Shown here: positions 45,074 through 52,959 of the stretch, one piece after another
Layout of the letters: every line of letters starts with the position of its first letter
Position numbering within the stretch: position 1 is the stretch's first letter
DNA from: Xylanibacter rodentium
GTDB lineage: Bacteria; Bacteroidota; Bacteroidia; Bacteroidales; Bacteroidaceae
DNA: 64,000 nucleotides
Assembly: GCF_013166575.1 (NCBI RefSeq)
Contig: NZ_JABKKE010000001.1
Span: forward strand, 310,001-374,000
Direction: 5' to 3'
The notes under the pieces: generated by a model
What the model was told of the DNA's origin: nothing
The model's input: only the letters and a program-made list of their open reading frames with translations
Database searches by the model: none
Translations under genes and position numbers: made by a program

Positions 45074-46114
45074 ATGATACTCGACAAAATAGAAAAACTT
45101 CTCGATGAAGTGCAGAACCTTAACGCACACAACGCTGAAGAAATAGAGGCTCTGCGACTGAAATATCTTAGCAAAAAAGGTGAAATAACAACACTCATGG
45201 CCGACTTCCGCAATGTACCGGCAGAACAGAAAAAGGAAGTGGGAATGAGAATAAACGAACTGAAGCAGACAGCCATAGAGCGGATCAACGCCCTTAAAGA
45301 GCAGTTCGAAACAACCGAGGGTGACGGTCCGGCCATGGACCTTACGCGCTCGCCCTACCCTATACGCCTCGGCACACGCCACCCGCTGACCATCGTCACC
45401 AACGAAATTATAGACATATTCTCGCGCATGGGCTTCGTACTGGCCGACGGACCGGAAGTGGAGGACGACCTGCACGTGTTCACGAAGATGAACTTTGCGG
45501 CCGACCATCCGGCACGCGACATGCAGGACACATTCTTTGTGGAGCAGAGCCAGACTGGCGACGTGACCAAGAACATGGTGCTGCGCAGCCACACAAGTTC
45601 CGTACAGGCACGTTTCATGGAAAACTCGCAGCCTCCAATACGCATCATAGCCCCAGGCCGCGTATATCGTAACGAAGCCATCACGGCACGCGCCCACTGC
45701 TTCTTCCATCAGGTGGAAGGCCTCTATGTCGACAAGAACGTATCGTTCACCGACCTCAAGCAAGTACTCCTGTCGTTTGCACGCGAAATGTTCGGTACCG
45801 ACACCAAGATACGACTGCGCCCGAGCTACTTCCCCTTCACTGAGCCGAGTGCCGAGATGGACATATCATGCCATATATGCGGCGGCAAGGGATGCGGATT
45901 CTGCAAGCACACCGGATGGGTGGAGATATTGGGATGCGGCATGGTCGACCCCAACGTGCTCGAGCAATGCGGAATAGACAGCAAGGTATACAGCGGCTAT
46001 GCGTTCGGCATGGGTGTAGAGCGCATCACCAACCTGAAGTATCAGGTGAGCGACCTGCGCATGTTCTCGGAAAACGACACCCGATTCCTCAAGGAGTTTG
46101 AAGCCGCAAACTGA
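45074..46114 (+). CDS. pheS: Phenylalanine-tRNA ligase, alpha subunit
   Basis: 346 residues. An N-terminal coiled coil is followed by the class II core with TSSVQARFM, RVYRNEAITARAHCFFHQVE (motif 2) and GCGMVDPNVL, then GYAFGMGVERITNLKYQV (motif 3). A four-Cys CHICGGKGCGFC insert is seen, as in other Bacteroidota PheS. A TACCTTTGC promoter box lies about 30 bp before the start. The beta-subunit gene is not adjacent. Confidence 0.96.
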   Translation: MILDKIEKLLDEVQNLNAHNAEEIEALRLKYLSKKGEITTLMADFRNVPAEQKKEVGMRINELKQTAIERINALKEQFETTEGDGPAMDLTRSPYPIRLGTRHPLTIVTNEIIDIFSRMGFVLADGPEVEDDLHVFTKMNFAADHPARDMQDTFFVEQSQTGDVTKNMVLRSHTSSVQARFMENSQPPIRIIAPGRVYRNEAITARAHCFFHQVEGLYVDKNVSFTDLKQVLLSFAREMFGTDTKIRLRPSYFPFTEPSAEMDISCHICGGKGCGFCKHTGWVEILGCGMVDPNVLEQCGIDSKVYSGYAFGMGVERITNLKYQVSDLRMFSENDTRFLKEFEAAN

Positions 46115-46148
46115 GAAGCACCTTCAAGCATACATACACACTACACAC

Positions 46149-46198
46149 GCGGAGCCACAAAGAACCTCTTACCCGAAACTTTGTGGCTCCGCATTTTT
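46149..46198 (+). terminator. Terminator after pheS
   Basis: GCGGAGCCACAAAG pairs perfectly with CTTTGTGGCTCCGC around a 16-nt loop and is followed by a T-run. Confidence 0.9.
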
Positions 46199-46219
46199 GC
46201 ATTGTAAACACGACAATCA

Positions 46220-47497
46220 ATGACAAAAGACAGACTTTTCACACCCGGTTATATCTGTATCCTGGCAGCCAACTTCCTCTTCTTCTTCGGCTTCTGGCTG
46301 CTCGTGCCGGTGCTGCCGTTCTATCTTAGAGAGACATACGCCTGCCATACTGCCGCCATCGGCATCATACTGAGCTGCTACACTGTGAGCTGCCTCTGTG
46401 TGCGCCCTTTCTCCGGATTTCTCATGGACAGATTTCCGCGCAAGCCCATATACATATCATGCTATGTGGCCTGCATGGCAATGTTTCTCGGATACATGTC
46501 CGACACCACCCTTACCGCCTTTATCCTCCTGCGCGCCATTCATGGGGTGGCATTCGGCGGCGTCACCGTTGGAGGCAACACACTTTGTGTTGACATCATG
46601 CCGAGCAGCAGACGCGGCGAGGGACTGGGCTATTACGGACTGACCAACAACATTGCCATGGCTCTCGGACCGATGGCCGGACTTTTGCTCCACGGACAGA
46701 TCAGCTATAACAGTATCTTCCTTGCCGGAATGACGGCCAGCGCCATAGGACTGCTCTGCGCCATATCCGTCAAAGCACGCACTCCTGAATCGCTGAGAAA
46801 GCCGCAACATCCCGTCCGCAATACAGCGGGCGGCAAACGCCAAGACGACAATGTTACACCAGCCAACCGCACCGTCAGAAGCCACGGAATATCCCTCGAC
46901 CGCTTCATACTGCTGAAAGGGATACCGGTAAGCATATCACTGCTCATGCTGTCGATACCCTACGGTGCCACCACCAATTTCGTGGCTATGTATGCCCGAG
47001 AGATAAATCTTGACGTGCCCACAGGATTCTTCTTCACGCTGATGGCCGCAGGCATGGGCGCATCAAGACTCGTGGCCGGCAAGAAAGTCGACCGCGGCTA
47101 CATCACCCAATGCATCCGCTTCGGCTACTATCCTGTCATCGCCGCATTCCTGTTGCTCAGCCTTTGCCGTCAGGCGGTATCCGTAAGTCCGGCCGCCGCC
47201 ACAACGATGTTCTTCACCGTTCCGCTACTTCTCGGCACTGGGTTCGGCGTAATGTTCCCCGCCATGAACTCACTGTACATCAATCTCGCACCCAACAACC
47301 AGCGCGCCACTGCCACAAGCACCTATCTCACGGCATGGGACGTCGGCATAGGTATCGGAATAGTGAGCAGCGGCATAATAGCCCAGCACTTCACCTTTTA
47401 TATGGTATATCTCACCGGGGCGGCACTCTGTACGCTTTCGCTGCTGTTTTTCGTGCACCGTGTCACGCCACACTATAACCGCAACAAGCTCAGATAA
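46220..47497 (+). CDS. MFS transporter
   Basis: 425 residues with twelve hydrophobic segments. The MFS motif A between helices 2 and 3 reads FSGFLMDRFPRKPIYI; the N-terminal half contains GVAFGGVTVGGNTL and the second half MGASRLVAGKKVDRGYITQC. Helices 6-7 are joined by a charged loop (about 190-215). Substrate is unknown. It is convergent with the zinc-ribbon/membrane gene pair and lies 2-3 kb from the radical SAM locus, but a functional link is not established. Confidence 0.9.
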   Translation: MTKDRLFTPGYICILAANFLFFFGFWLLVPVLPFYLRETYACHTAAIGIILSCYTVSCLCVRPFSGFLMDRFPRKPIYISCYVACMAMFLGYMSDTTLTAFILLRAIHGVAFGGVTVGGNTLCVDIMPSSRRGEGLGYYGLTNNIAMALGPMAGLLLHGQISYNSIFLAGMTASAIGLLCAISVKARTPESLRKPQHPVRNTAGGKRQDDNVTPANRTVRSHGISLDRFILLKGIPVSISLLMLSIPYGATTNFVAMYAREINLDVPTGFFFTLMAAGMGASRLVAGKKVDRGYITQCIRFGYYPVIAAFLLLSLCRQAVSVSPAAATTMFFTVPLLLGTGFGVMFPAMNSLYINLAPNNQRATATSTYLTAWDVGIGIGIVSSGIIAQHFTFYMVYLTGAALCTLSLLFFVHRVTPHYNRNKLR

Positions 47498-47572
47498 CAT
47501 CACTATATCAAAATAAATGCTGCCGTAAAAATTGTTTTACGATTAGAATCAAATAGAGTACTACTTATTCTA

Positions 47573-47884
47573 TCAGATTCTTTTAACTCCGCCAACGACA
47601 GCTGAAACAATTACCGTCACCACCCATCCCCAAACAAAAGGCATCCAGGAAACAGATGACATAAGCATCCCGAATATAGATCCGGCAGATATCCACATAA
47701 AGACTATTCCTATTACTATGCCAAGAAATATGCCTACAAAAAATCCAGATACAATACCCGAAGCAACTTCTGCGCTAAAGAATATACGGGTCAATACATA
47801 CAAAACAGACAACACCACAACAAGTATAATCAAAATAGCGACAGGAGCTGCAACAGGAAGCAACGATATTAAATATTGAATCAT
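47573..47884 (-). CDS. Small multi-pass membrane protein, or membrane tail of a frameshifted zinc-ribbon protein
   Basis: From ATG 47884 the chain is 103 residues (MIQYLISLLPVAAPVAILII) with three to four Gly/Ile/Val-rich membrane segments. The same frame extends upstream to a GTG at 47959 as PKCTYCGHIYDADEKGWVKC, a second half of a zinc ribbon. That part is out of frame with the preceding zinc-ribbon gene. The simplest reading is one original protein with a four-CxxC zinc ribbon and a membrane domain, now broken by a frameshift near 47960-47990; two separate genes are also possible. Confidence 0.55.
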   Translation of the reverse strand: MIQYLISLLPVAAPVAILIILVVVLSVLYVLTRIFFSAEVASGIVSGFFVGIFLGIVIGIVFMWISAGSIFGMLMSSVSWMPFVWGWVVTVIVSAVVGGVKRI

Positions 47885-47901
47885 AATCTTTAGTTTACAT
47901 T

Positions 47902-48165
47902 TTACCCAACCTTTCTCATCAGCGTCATAAATATGTCCGCAATAAGTACATTTAGGCACAATAGTCCCATAATGATTGTATGTTGTGCCTCTCTCATTAC
48001 TCTATTACAAACTGCACAAATTGGAACCTTATCATATATGTGAACTTTGCTACAATTATAGCATGCTTTCAATTCGCATGGGCCGTACTGGACCACCAGT
48101 TTGAGACGTGTTGAGCCACAATTGCGACAGGTGTCGCATGAAAACAAATCAGAAAAGAATCCCAT
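47902..48165 (-). CDS. Zinc-ribbon protein, 3' end apparently frameshifted
   Basis: 87 residues. CxxC pairs occur at CDTCRNCG, ACYNCSK and ICAVCNR, typical zinc ribbons. The end (IIMGLLCLNVLIADIFMTLM) replaces the second CxxC of the last ribbon, which exists in the other frame (PKCTYCGHIY). Translating through a single-base shift gives a complete four-pair zinc-ribbon domain and joins it to the membrane protein. It lies downstream of the RiPP precursor on the same strand. Confidence 0.55.
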   Translation of the reverse strand: MGFFSDLFSCDTCRNCGSTRLKLVVQYGPCELKACYNCSKVHIYDKVPICAVCNRVMREAQHTIIMGLLCLNVLIADIFMTLMRKVG

Positions 48166-48340
48166 AAGTTTTTATAATTTTGAATTTAGTGAAAAATCCG
48201 ATACTATCAACCCTTCGAAGAATTTATCACATGCGAAATTAATTCTCACAAAGGGTTGATTTAAGGTTTTACGATGAATAACATCGAGAATCACAAGAAA
48301 AACAAATTATAGTTTCCCTTATTTCAACAATAGAACCGTC
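48166..48340. other. Intergenic region after the RiPP precursor
   Basis: An imperfect inverted repeat ATCAACCCTT / AAAGGGTTGAT (about 48207-48262) could be a hairpin. No further short peptide of the precursor type is found here. Confidence 0.4.
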
Positions 48341-48484
48341 TTAACTGCGCATCCAGTTTGAACCGCAATCGCCACTGCATCCACAACAATTGGCACTTAC
48401 GTGCCATGTTGTCTCATTCATCTTTGCCATCTTCTTTCCATACATTTGATTGATGGCATCAATGTTCGTCAACTTAAAATTCAT
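48341..48484 (-). CDS. Candidate RiPP precursor peptide, Cys-rich core
   Basis: A 47-residue peptide read from ATG 48484. The N-terminal two-thirds look like a leader (MNFKLTNIDAINQMYGKKMA, KMNETTWHVSA) and the C-terminal part is NCCGCSGDCGSNWMRS with four Cys, Gly, Ser and Trp. It lies 47 bp after the radical SAM gene on the same strand. Leader-plus-Cys-core next to a SPASM radical SAM enzyme is the layout of sactipeptides and ranthipeptides, in which Cys thioethers are made. It is too short for routine gene calling. The product and its role are unknown. Confidence 0.7.
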   Translation of the reverse strand: MNFKLTNIDAINQMYGKKMAKMNETTWHVSANCCGCSGDCGSNWMRS

Positions 48485-48531
48485 GACTTAACTGTAATTT
48501 TGTGATTTGCCCTGTTTGATGGTAAGGACAA

Positions 48532-49779
48532 TTAACCATTAGATAATTCTCTTATAAATCCACTCTCTTCCAAGAAAGTCTGGGTCATGATTACCCCTTT
48601 GGCTATCATAGCAAGTTCATCATTGTCAAAATCCCGCAAAGCCGCATAATCACAAGGCTTTTCAAGCATATGGCCAATCATCCATGAACCGGCCAACACA
48701 CGTATCTTGGTTATGACGCATGTGTAAGGATCACGTCTCGACACGTCACCGTAAGTTATATAATTACCACCATAACAAGTGGGACAGACTGTTTCAAGAA
48801 TACAACCGCGGCAGCGTTCATCAGACAATCTGTCTGGAGAGGAGAAATCAAACTCTCCCAGTTTTTCGCCTTTTTCCTTACTTACCTCATAAAACAAGTG
48901 ACAAGGAAGGCATTGTCCGTCAGGAGTCCAGCAACGCATTATACTACCTGCTCCGCACAATTTATCTGTCATTCCACCCTTACCTGCTGCAACAGCTATG
49001 AATTTTATATTCAACAAATCCACCGGAATTATGTCTGGATGTTTCAAATAGTACATTGCAAGAATCATCAACTGTTCCTGTAATATTTTCTTATAGTCCA
49101 CACTGTTACCATGTTCGTCCTTATCCCAATCGATACCTGTCGCAAAAGTACAATTATTACGACAGAAGCCCAATTCATGTATATGGATTATCCCATCTGA
49201 CAATGATGCCAATGTACCAGGAGATGGTGTCATCTTCACTCCCTGCACGGGCCAATTGTCTCTGAAAAAAGCTATATCTATTTTTTCATAAGAGTTTGAC
49301 CGGTTACGGTTGTGCATATCACGTGTTCCGTCCAAACTCAATCCAAGGCAAAAACGATGCTTGTTTTTTAACAGCCATTCTTTTATTTCACCATGTATAA
49401 GTGTGCCGTTTGTTGTAGCATAGCAAATATAATTAACCGGCCATTCTCTTGCCCAAAGCCATTCACATATTTCTCTGATACGCTTGTACGCCATAAAAGG
49501 CTCTCCACCATGAAACAAAATCTCCACATATTCTATATTTTCCGACACAGCACGCTCAAAAGTAGAAACTATGCCTTTCTTAGCTATATCCAAAGACATC
49601 ACAGCTTTACCTTTCAAATGCTCATAGCAATATACACAATTAAGATTGCAATTCTCTGTCACATAGAGAGTACAAGTACATCTCTTGAACTTATCATATT
49701 TAAAAGTCCTTTCCTTCACCATCGTTTCAAACAATGCCTGCCGCGACCTCCATGCATCAGCTATTTCATTAATATACAA
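48532..49779 (-). CDS. Radical SAM/SPASM peptide maturase
   Basis: 415 residues if started at TTG 49779; ATG 49722 (396 residues) is an alternative, as the only upstream in-frame codon is a stop 9 bp away. The radical SAM cluster is ENCNLNCVYCYEH (Cys 44, 48, 51), followed by FHGGEPFM (91-94) and SLDGTRDMHNRNR. The C-terminal SPASM-type region has C275, C283, C290, C293, then CRGCILETVCPTC (C323-C335) and C354, able to hold two auxiliary iron-sulfur clusters. It resembles anSME/peptide-modifying enzymes. The precursor peptide lies just downstream and a structured leader just upstream. Confidence 0.88.
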   Translation of the reverse strand: MYINEIADAWRSRQALFETMVKERTFKYDKFKRCTCTLYVTENCNLNCVYCYEHLKGKAVMSLDIAKKGIVSTFERAVSENIEYVEILFHGGEPFMAYKRIREICEWLWAREWPVNYICYATTNGTLIHGEIKEWLLKNKHRFCLGLSLDGTRDMHNRNRSNSYEKIDIAFFRDNWPVQGVKMTPSPGTLASLSDGIIHIHELGFCRNNCTFATGIDWDKDEHGNSVDYKKILQEQLMILAMYYLKHPDIIPVDLLNIKFIAVAAGKGGMTDKLCGAGSIMRCWTPDGQCLPCHLFYEVSKEKGEKLGEFDFSSPDRLSDERCRGCILETVCPTCYGGNYITYGDVSRRDPYTCVITKIRVLAGSWMIGHMLEKPCDYAALRDFDNDELAMIAKGVIMTQTFLEESGFIRELSNG

Positions 49780-49790
49780 ATGGAACTATA

Positions 49791-49892
49791 CAAAAAAGCG
49801 TGGAGATCGTACCTGTTACCCGTTCCACGATTAGAGGCTCTGGCATTGGCCCATTCAGTCAGAACGAGCAACGCCAGAACCCACGCCGATGA
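49791..49892 (-). promoter_or_regulatory. Structured leader, attenuator-like, upstream of the radical SAM gene
   Basis: In the reverse-strand RNA a perfect 10-bp stem UCUGGCGUUG / CAAUGCCAGA forms a hairpin. Downstream CGUGGA pairs with UCCACG, directly followed by UUUUUU, which is a terminator-like hairpin. An earlier GCGUGG can compete for the same CCACGC, giving a second structure. The U-tract ends about 10 nt before the TTG at 49779. No known riboswitch class is recognised. Confidence 0.45.
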
Positions 49893-50610
49893 ATTTATAT
49901 AATTATCCCTCTATCACATACCGCATACACCATCTGCTGAATACATACAACAATGGTATATACAATATAGACAGAAAGATGCCTATAAAAACATCCCATG
50001 AGCATCTACCGCTGCTATGTTCCATGACTGAATGTTGAAACTGCCAGATTTCTAATCGTCAAGAACAAAGCGTCAAGCAAACGCCTTTTTATAATAGTGA
50101 CTCTCTTTCCCCAACCCCTTTGCCGCTGTCAGCGTATTTACCGTCACGGACATTTTCCCGTCCGCCATCAGTCTCCTCTTGTACGGCGTGAGTAAGATAT
50201 ACTGTCTCTATGTGCAGAAATCAACGGACACGTCCGCCTATATCCCACGAAACAGAATATTCAGAGAATCATCTGCAAAAATAACAAATATTTCTCAAAA
50301 ACAAAACAAATATGAATTATTTTTCAAAAACATATTCAAAAACAAACGAAATTATCACGACATCCTTTACACACATTCCTGATTGACGAAACTGACATAA
50401 AAACAGTGGTATATACAATAAACAGACATAAGTCTCCCGCACATCCGGTTCATACCAAATACTGAATGGACATCTTACCGGACTTTTCCATTCAAATATT
50501 ATGGTTTATCGGAAAAACAGATTATCTTTGTAACCCGTTTTACTACAAACACACCGTACATGCCGCACATCGGACCGGTGAAGTATACAGACACGAATAA
50601 ATAAAAACAT
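49893..50610. other. Gene-poor region with two very short reverse-strand frames
   Basis: Two small frames occur on the reverse strand: 49903-50025 (40 residues, with a hydrophobic stretch VFIGIFLSILYIPLLYVF) and 50073-50168 (31 residues, preceded by AGAGGAGA, starting MADGKMSVTVNTLTAAKGLG). Neither matches a family I know. They could be remnants. The rest, 50200-50610, is AT-rich with no gene. Confidence 0.35.
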
Positions 50611-50988
50611 ATGCGTATAATAGGAAATCTATTGTGGTGGCTCTTCGGAGGCCTCGAAGCAGCCATAGGATATTTTACAGGCAGTCTGGCAATGGCAATC
50701 ACCATCATAGGCATACCCGTAGCCTTGCAGACGTTCAAGATCGGCTTGCTCTGCCTATGGCCTTTCGGGGCTGAAGTGAAGGAAACGGACAGCCCCTCTG
50801 GATGCATACGTATACCGCTGAATATCCTTTGGATTGTCTTCGGAGGCTTGTGGGCATGGCTTATACACATAGTTTTCGGTGTGTTGCTGTTTGTTACGAT
50901 TATCGGCATCCCCTTTGCAAAACAGCATTTCAAGATGGCGGGACTTTCGCTTGCACCGTTCGGGAAAGATGTAAAACTACACATATAG
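50611..50988 (+). CDS. YccF-family inner-membrane protein
   Basis: 125 residues with two YccF-type halves, each with a hydrophobic segment and the motif IGIPVALQTFKIGLLCLWPF or IGIPFAKQHFKMAGLSLAPF. YccF proteins are small inner-membrane proteins of unknown function. The stop is 6 bp before the thioredoxin start, so both are in one transcript. Confidence 0.9.
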   Translation: MRIIGNLLWWLFGGLEAAIGYFTGSLAMAITIIGIPVALQTFKIGLLCLWPFGAEVKETDSPSGCIRIPLNILWIVFGGLWAWLIHIVFGVLLFVTIIGIPFAKQHFKMAGLSLAPFGKDVKLHI

Positions 50989-50994
50989 ACAACA

Positions 50995-51294
50995 ATGGAG
51001 ACATTCAAAGACGTTATATCATCCGACAGACTCGTATTGGTAGATTTCTTCGCCACATGGTGTCAGCCGTGCAAGATGATGCACCCGATACTGGAACAGG
51101 TGAAAGATGTGCTTGGTGACAGGATCCGCATCATCAAAGTCGATGTAGACAAACACAGTGCAACAGCAGTGCAGCATCAGGTGCGGTCTGTGCCTACGCT
51201 GATGCTGTTCAGGCATGGCGAGATGCTTTGGAGAACGAGCGGCGTAGTGCCTGAAAAGGATTTGCTGGACACAATAAAAAAATTTGTCAGATGA
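50995..51294 (+). CDS. trxA: Thioredoxin
   Basis: 99 residues. The thioredoxin active site is ATWCQPCKMM (CxxC with QP instead of the usual GP). The cis-Pro segment is VRSVPTLMLFRHGE. It lacks a signal peptide, so it is cytoplasmic. It overlaps the FKBP gene by 4 bp and follows YccF by 6 bp, suggesting a redox and folding operon. Confidence 0.93.
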   Translation: METFKDVISSDRLVLVDFFATWCQPCKMMHPILEQVKDVLGDRIRIIKVDVDKHSATAVQHQVRSVPTLMLFRHGEMLWRTSGVVPEKDLLDTIKKFVR

Positions 51295-51689
51295 ACAAAA
51301 GACAATACGCTCAGGCAAACAAGGATTGGCTGCAGACCAAAGTCCGGGAAGACGGGGTGAAAGCTCTTTCAAAAGGTATATATTACAAAGTATTGGCGGA
51401 AGGAAACGGCGATGGCATACATCCTTCGCCGCGAAGCATTGTGACGGCCCATTATACCGGCCGCACCATAGACGGAAGGCAGTTTGACAGCAGCCGTGGA
51501 GGGGCTCCGCTTGCCATAAGGCTCTGCGACCTCATAGAGGGATGGATCATTGCCATGCAGCAAATGTGCATAGGAGACAAATGGGAAGTATATATCCCCG
51601 CCGAGATGGGTTATGGAAAATATTCACAGCCGGGCATACCCGCCGGCTCTACCCTGATATTCGAAATAGAACTGATGGGCATAGCATAA
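51291..51689 (+). CDS. FKBP-type peptidyl-prolyl isomerase
   Basis: 132 residues. The FKBP domain is complete: GDGIHPSPRSIVTAHYTGRT, DSSRGGAPLAIRLCDLIEGW, VYIPAEMGYGKYSQPGIPAG and STLIFEIELMGI. It has no signal peptide. Coupled to thioredoxin through a 4-bp overlap. A palindromic element begins right after its stop. Confidence 0.93.
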   Translation: MNKRQYAQANKDWLQTKVREDGVKALSKGIYYKVLAEGNGDGIHPSPRSIVTAHYTGRTIDGRQFDSSRGGAPLAIRLCDLIEGWIIAMQQMCIGDKWEVYIPAEMGYGKYSQPGIPAGSTLIFEIELMGIA

Positions 51690-51754
51690 AAGTCTTCGTC
51701 AAACCAGATGAGTTGAACGGAACTTGTCTTCATCAAGCCATGGCGAAAAAACGC
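51690..51754 (+). repeat. Dispersed palindromic element (diverged copy)
   Basis: AAGTCTTCGTCAAACCAGAT, GAACGGAACTTG and AGCCATGGCGAAAAAACGC. It abuts the FKBP stop codon. Confidence 0.75.
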
Positions 51755-51806
51755 GGGATTAGAATCCGACATCAGAAGACAACAACAATGCACGAAAGGA
51801 TATTAT

Positions 51807-52085
51807 ATGACTGACTATCATCTATTTATTGCCATTTACATAATCGCTGTCAACCTTGTCACCTTCGTTACATATGGCATTGACAAATACAAATCCATAA
51901 AAAGAAAATGGCGGATATCCGAAGCTACGCTGCTGACAATGGCTGTCATAGGAGGAAGCATCGGGGCATGGACAGGCATGAAAGTGTGGCGCCATAAAAC
52001 AATGCACAAGAAATTCACCATAGGAATACCGATTGTGTTTGTCATACATCTGTTTATTGTGATATATCTCCATACCATTACATGA
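51807..52085 (+). CDS. DUF1294 membrane protein
   Basis: 92 residues. DUF1294 signatures are present: NLVTFVTYGIDKYKSIKRKW, RISEATLLTMAVIGGSIGAW and the C-terminal hydrophobic helix (GIPIVFVIHLFIVIYLHTI). Members are small membrane proteins, sometimes found fused to cold-shock domains; the role is unknown. It ends the YccF-thioredoxin-FKBP run, separated by the palindromic element. Confidence 0.9.
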   Translation: MTDYHLFIAIYIIAVNLVTFVTYGIDKYKSIKRKWRISEATLLTMAVIGGSIGAWTGMKVWRHKTMHKKFTIGIPIVFVIHLFIVIYLHTIT

Positions 52086-52103
52086 CTTTTCACTGCGTTG
52101 AAA

Positions 52104-52225
52104 AAACGGCCAATCGCAACCGATATTGCAAAAGCGGCACTTTTGCAGTGTGAAAGTGGCACTTTGGGAATGCGAAAGCGGCACTTTGGGGATGCGAAAT
52201 CAGCACTTTAAGAACCCGAAAGCAC
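52104..52225. repeat. ~22-bp tandem array (array C)
   Basis: Five consecutive units of exactly 22 bp or nearly so start at 52131, 52153, 52175, 52197 and 52219; each begins AAA and has GGCACTTT or a variant (AAAGCGGCACTTTGGGGATG). Two of them differ at two positions only. A further unit precedes them. It is the best preserved of the three GGC-type arrays. Confidence 0.9.
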
Positions 52226-52300
52226 GTTTTTTCACACTTTTGCTCCACATGCCCAACCTATGATCGGAGAGAAAACTCGCTGAAAAACGGGCGGGACTGA

Positions 52301-52959
52301 TTCTCCAAAACGGAGATTTCGGTATGAAAAACGTGGTTTGAATTCTCCGTTTTGCCATTTCATGTGTTAAAAACGCGATTTTGGTATGTTAAAATAGCAT
52401 TTTTCAGTGTTAATTCTCCGAGTTTTCTGCGGACGAAATGTTTCTGAATATTTACATTTTCAGATAGTGGAATGTCGTTGTATGCTGTATAGACAGGTTT
52501 GACGAGTGATGCATGGAGATTGTTTTTATTTACAATCGGTGTTGCGATTTATTACGGAGAATTCGGAGAATCTCCGAAAACAGGGTGTGTGCATCATGTT
52601 ATAATCCGTAAGTAAATATTTTATATAATAATCTATTATTTAAATACATATATATGTATTTAAATAATAGATTATTATATACCCTGTAAAATCATATGCA
52701 GCGCATATTCTGTTTTCGGAGATTCTCCGAATTCTCCGTTTTGAAAACACACCAACCAATCTTACACAATTGTCCTTTCTTTATTCTCAAATATCTGTAT
52801 GTCAATGTTCCGGCTACGATACCGCCGACAATAAAACGCTACACACGTTGTAAATAATATCGAAAAAAGTCATTACCAAAACCGCGTTTTTAACACATGA
52901 AATGGCAAAACGGAGAATTCAAATCGCATTTTTCATACCGAAATCTCCGTTTTGGAGAA
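52301..52959. repeat. Nested inverted-repeat segment with a 60-bp perfect palindrome
   Basis: Outer arms 52301-52386 and 52874-52959 are inverted copies of 86 bp with 82 matches. Inner arms 52555-52583 and 52710-52738 are 29 bp with no mismatch. The centre, 52622-52681, is a perfect 60-bp palindrome of A and T. The motif CGGAGAAT or its complement ATTCTCCG recurs about a dozen times through the region. No gene is present between 52086 and 53088. Confidence 0.95.

Follow-up and report, generated by a model that had tools for sequence, protein, structure and literature searches.

A radical SAM maturase and its 47-residue Cys-rich peptide in Xylanibacter rodentium and other Bacteroidales: probably a new family within a known general type of peptide

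Described radical SAM peptide maturation systems with the closest resemblance to the locus studied here include PapB/PapA of the ranthipeptide freyrasin (NF047865), in which CX3D is the natural motif of PapB and, in vitro, PapB links Cys and Asp that are 0-6 residues apart (PMC9413430), and CteB/CteA of the SCIFF ranthipeptides (5WGG, 5WHY; TIGR03974), in which CteB is a Cys-Thr thioether synthase with a described RRE (PMC8172795). The CXXX-repeat radical SAM systems (TIGR04115/TIGR04114) also have Cys-rich targets, the GG-Bacteroidales system (TIGR04148) has a radical SAM peptide maturase from the order Bacteroidales, and ChlB (PDB 9GM3), solved in complex with its leader, has a compact radical SAM-SPASM fold and forms cyclophanes.

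The locus compared with these systems is on the minus strand of a 64,000-nucleotide stretch of the Xylanibacter rodentium genome (contig NZ_JABKKE010000001.1, positions 310,001 to 374,000; hereafter the window, to which all coordinates refer). Its features are as follows, with the basis of each in brackets.

48532..49722, minus strand: radical SAM/SPASM peptide maturase, 396 aa, without N-terminal RRE (homology, family models, predicted structure)
48341..48484, minus strand: precursor peptide, 47 aa, MNFKLTNIDAINQMYGKKMAKMNETTWHVSANCCGCSGDCGSNWMRS (conservation, precursor profile, pN/pS)
48386..48484, minus strand: leader part, residues 1-33 (alignment; boundary set by conservation)
48344..48385, minus strand: conserved core, residues 34-47, CGCSGDCGSNWMRS (alignment, pN/pS, core signature)
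47902..48165, minus strand: possible accessory zinc-ribbon protein, 87 aa (weak similarity)
47573..47959, minus strand: possible accessory membrane protein, 128 aa, overlapping the zinc-ribbon ORF (weak similarity)

Maturase and peptide had both been proposed in a sequence-only reading of the window. The peptide is an ATG ORF at 48341-48484 (-), as described there, and is separated from the maturase stop by 47 bp. The maturase ORF at 48532-49779 (-) is present as well, and its TTG start at 49779 is probably wrong: all close relatives begin near the Met that aligns with 49722, and the protein is accordingly taken as 396 aa from ATG 49722. TTG 49779 is located at the edge of a dispersed repeat (49777-50288), just upstream of the maturase, of which further copies were found in the same genome at 76% and 74%, many genomes of the same genus holding shorter pieces of it; an Rfam search of 46000-52500, repeat included, gave no match. 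Numbered from Met 49722, the reported CX3CX2C motif is C25/C29/C32, and the nine Cys assigned to a SPASM-like region are found at 256, 264, 271, 274, 304, 307, 313, 316 and 335. Seven of these are invariant across 18 aligned maturase relatives, in the pattern CX2CX5CX2C with flanking Cys, which is the SPASM-type auxiliary-cluster arrangement expected of a ranthipeptide maturase.

Searches against NCBIfam placed the PapB model first (119 bits, cut-off 340), matching over the whole catalytic and SPASM region, and the CXXX-repeat model second (TIGR04115; 97 bits, or 96.7 before rounding, cut-off 350), and both also match all 18 aligned relatives. Since these cut-offs are missed, the maturase belongs to neither named family; no NCBIfam model claims it, and every curated cut-off is missed by a wide margin, including those for SCIFF/CteB (70.5 bits against 425) and GG-Bacteroidales (38.6 against 300). 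The window precursor is Cys-rich like PapA but lacks CX3D/E motifs and repeats, its core being one short motif; it is unrelated to CteA, carries four Cys against the six in 45 residues of SCIFF peptides, and has neither a CXXX repeat nor the double-Gly (GG) of the GG-Bacteroidales leaders, and neither a pseudo-rSAM protein nor a C39 transporter was seen in the window system.

An AlphaFold model of the maturase was built from 18 family sequences (mean pLDDT 90.5), and this predicted fold was closest in the PDB to CteB (E 2.4e-17), also the top PDB sequence match, followed by anSME and ChlB; sequence similarity to ChlB is, however, confined to the radical SAM core. In the sequence alignment, maturase residues 16-348 pair with CteB 99-448. 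Because the alignment begins at CteB 99, the N-terminal leader-binding domain of CteB, the RRE held in its residues before about 99, is missing from the window maturase. The two enzymes have a common SPASM cysteine layout, with most of the seven invariant Cys aligning with those of CteB, and differ in the extra C264 and C271 of the window maturase. As to the earlier assignment to "sactipeptide or ranthipeptide" pathways, either may apply: the nearest enzymes, PapB and CteB, are ranthipeptide maturases, but no family cut-off is reached.

Maturases 68-76% identical to that of the window were found in Bacteroides faecis, Bacteroides sp. GM023, Phocaeicola massiliensis, an uncultured Prevotella and Proteiniphilum. 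In all six intact close loci (the window, two Bacteroides, Phocaeicola, the uncultured Prevotella and Proteiniphilum), the precursor directly follows the maturase on the same strand, at a distance of 44-70 bp, so that a precursor with leader and core adjoins a dedicated modifying enzyme, as in a RiPP system. The peptide frame, whose loss beside related maturases had been named in advance as grounds for rejecting the claim, is conserved there. Alignment of ten precursor copies gave M1, F3-L5, I11, Y15 and W27 as leader invariants and the core CGC[ST]GDCGSNWM[RQ]S, in which 2 of 14 positions vary, S37 (T once) and R46 (Q). The core had been thought to begin NCCGC; C33 is variable in the alignment, and the conserved part starts at C34. 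Synonymous changes in the precursor codons are near saturation and amino-acid changes few, with pN/pS of 0.12 for the core and 0.25 for the leader, from compared pairs that are not independent. In the family survey, strong matches to the precursor profile (E < 1e-29) were obtained in only three genomes, that of the window included, all of which also carry the maturase (one copy decayed); 393 genomes of the order yielded no additional strong match, the family- and order-level surveys together amounting to ~790 genome searches. Neither maturase nor precursor relatives were found in the viral contigs searched, and phage records gave weak radical SAM similarity at most (<=35%). Gene order and core in the six intact loci, purifying selection and genome co-occurrence together uphold the proposed pairing, and on these comparisons the pair is real and probably represents a peptide family that is new, although its general type is known.

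The Cys-richness reported for the ORF is real and by itself unremarkable: four or more Cys occur among the last 20 residues of seven ATG ORFs in the window with lengths of 25-80 aa. Such ORFs being frequent by chance, conservation alone can support the claim of a real peptide. That this ORF is itself a chance or untranslated frame, as the abundance of similar ones might suggest, is very improbable, given that frame, length, position and core are kept across several genera and that synonymous changes dominate. The peptide had also been called too short for standard gene callers, which is doubtful for an ORF of 144 nt: this length exceeds the usual gene-caller limits. The related notion of a missed annotation finds some support, a pipeline having overlooked the precursor in a related decayed locus and fused it into an "aspartyl aminopeptidase" fragment. 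In that locus (L032 4464-6144, Bacteroides finegoldii, and L017), the maturase has lost the CX3CX2C cysteines and the M18 aminopeptidase gene is broken, while the precursor frame is intact within the annotated aspartyl aminopeptidase. No NCBIfam or Pfam model matches the window precursor above cut-off; the core sequence occurs in none of the papers searched, and the GDCG motif is absent from a survey of Bacteroidales RiPPs (PMC10352776).

More distant maturases in other Bacteroidota (27-43% identical) adjoin, in most loci, different small Cys-rich ORFs. Precursors beside the maturases of L007, L008, L010 and L011 contain the pattern C-X-C-X3-C-G-X-N-[YF] two to three times, in agreement with the window core, and L068 has the L008-type precursor. 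In the compared locus DNA, as constituted before L068 was added, the signature C-X-C-X3-C-G-X-N-[WYF] occurred nowhere but in such precursors; larger stretches around L012, L013 and L016 were inspected and gave no convincing precursor. The maturase tree recovers the window clade (100/100) and a clade with GSNY-type cores (98/96), deep branches being unsure. C264, the eighth SPASM Cys, is present in these two clades and absent from the others (alignment), it has no counterpart in CteB (sequence alignment), and in the maturases compared it is tracked by the longer signature C-X-C-X3-C-G-X-N. The shorter CXC was dropped as a predictor of C264, since the cores of L071-L073 also contain it.

We consider it probable that this RiPP maturase, lacking an RRE, cross-links the Cys-rich tip of the peptide, most likely through ranthipeptide-like thioethers, after which the leader would be removed. 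In this two-gene unit, the 396-aa enzyme would bind the 47-aa peptide at its conserved leader although it lacks an N-terminal RRE domain, its CX3CX2C cluster would generate the 5'-deoxyadenosyl radical, and Cys thiols of CGC[ST]GDCGSNWM[RQ]S would form carbon-sulfur cross-links with a non-Cys residue close by, the likeliest bond being a ranthipeptide-like thioether onto a beta or gamma carbon. Two points favor this type of bond: it is the one made by the nearest enzymes, and conserved Asp39 and Asn43, the leading acceptor candidates, are each at Cys+3. In place of CX3D/E motifs, the core offers only C36-S-G-D39 and C40-G-S-N43. Counting against ranthipeptide chemistry are the absence of CX3D and the failure to reach any family cut-off. 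In CteB, a substrate Cys is held at an open site of the cluster; C264 could close this site, and the chemistry may accordingly differ from that of CteB.

Bonding of the same Cys sulfurs to alpha carbons, which would make the product a sactipeptide, is compatible with a SPASM maturase and a Cys-rich core, and most relatives give low-scoring matches to the RumMC and GggB sactisynthase models; it is nonetheless unlikely, as the PapB-type model and the CteB fold score best and the core is without the classic layout of separated Cys and acceptor halves. The W-M-[RQ] tip also fits a cyclophane motif, which counts against the thioether. A triceptide-like enzyme would join invariant W44 to the side chain two residues on, leaving the Cys for metal binding, disulfides or the like, and such a reading draws on the presence among the best folds of the multiple-cyclophane synthase ChlB, whose structure was solved with its leader, and on the aromatic residue kept at the W44 place in both core types (W-M-R/Q in the window type; Y-H-K, Y-N-R and Y-S-K in relatives). 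We judge it unlikely, because the aromatic residue is equalled in conservation by three Cys, one Gly and one Asn, some related repeats lack a basic or amide residue at +2 (Y-S-F in L007), and the cyclophane models YhhB (60 bits against a cut-off of 445), XyeB (53 against 450) and AmcB all score below PapB.

Returning to thioether formation and the leader removal that would follow it, a candidate peptidase is encoded in some of the loci. In Bacteroides and Phocaeicola, a small HTH regulator and one or more membrane and zinc-ribbon proteins are encoded upstream of the maturase, which is followed by a precursor (tip WMQS), an M18 aminopeptidase (PF02127, 343 bits; metal-site regions apparently intact in alignment) and a second precursor (tip WMRS). 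The M18 enzyme would probably remove the leader in these hosts; this family is unmentioned in a review of RiPP leader proteases (PMC10885120). Neither HTH nor M18 gene was found at the window locus, and M18 is absent from the entire window genome, so the aminopeptidase cannot belong to the window's own version, in which some other peptidase would act. Precursor paralogues flank M18 in L018, L019 and L021, the first always ending in WMQS and the second in WMRS; this constancy suggests that a system of two peptides is being maintained. The HTH gene is likewise found with the distant maturases L013, L015 and L069, and the membrane/zinc-ribbon protein, at 66% identity, with L071. In the window, the first 18 residues of the 87-aa ORF show weak similarity to the zinc-ribbon protein whose gene lies upstream of the maturase in Bacteroides loci, and the 128-aa ORF has weak similarity only, to membrane/zinc-ribbon proteins of related loci. 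The two ORFs overlap in different frames (47573-48165) and may represent either a single frameshifted gene or two genes that are coupled.

No product export or immunity genes were recognized within ~5 kb of the close loci by ORF inspection; a putative MFS transporter-like gene in the window (46220-47497) is not common to related loci. Because the core barely varies and no export genes were recognized, we would guess at a regulatory or signalling role for the peptide. The family is patchily distributed across gut, rumen and digester Bacteroidales with its peptide tip nearly unchanged, and conservation this strong in so short a product is more suggestive of a constant molecular target or signal than of an arms-race toxin. 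It would represent an unnamed radical SAM RiPP family without RRE, marked by a core signature of its own and, in certain hosts, by an M18 aminopeptidase; the missing RRE, the presence of C264 wherever the C-X-C-X3-C-G-X-N core occurs and the M18 link bear on substrate recognition and finishing. A bolder and doubtful proposal, which we advance tentatively, is that a distinct Bacteroidota RiPP class, defined by a C-X-C-X3-C-G-X-N-aromatic core and RRE-less maturases with the extra C264, makes an undescribed cross-link pattern, and that the Bacteroides M18 enzyme trims the leader to the first cross-link, giving a pair of related peptides, with the tips WMQS and WMRS, that act jointly.

In L007, L010, L011 and L014, distant maturases whose precursors are GSNY-type or related adjoin a MORN-repeat protein and a HEGRH-motif protein (by eye; SprT-like at E 0.055), and in L007, L010 and L011 an ATPase-like protein too (by eye, no Pfam match); this neighbourhood is a different, larger island. 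Precursors of L006 and L009 have unrelated cores and, in common with the window peptide, the leader motif [IL]xx[KM][YF]G, which is perhaps the part recognized by the RRE-less maturase.
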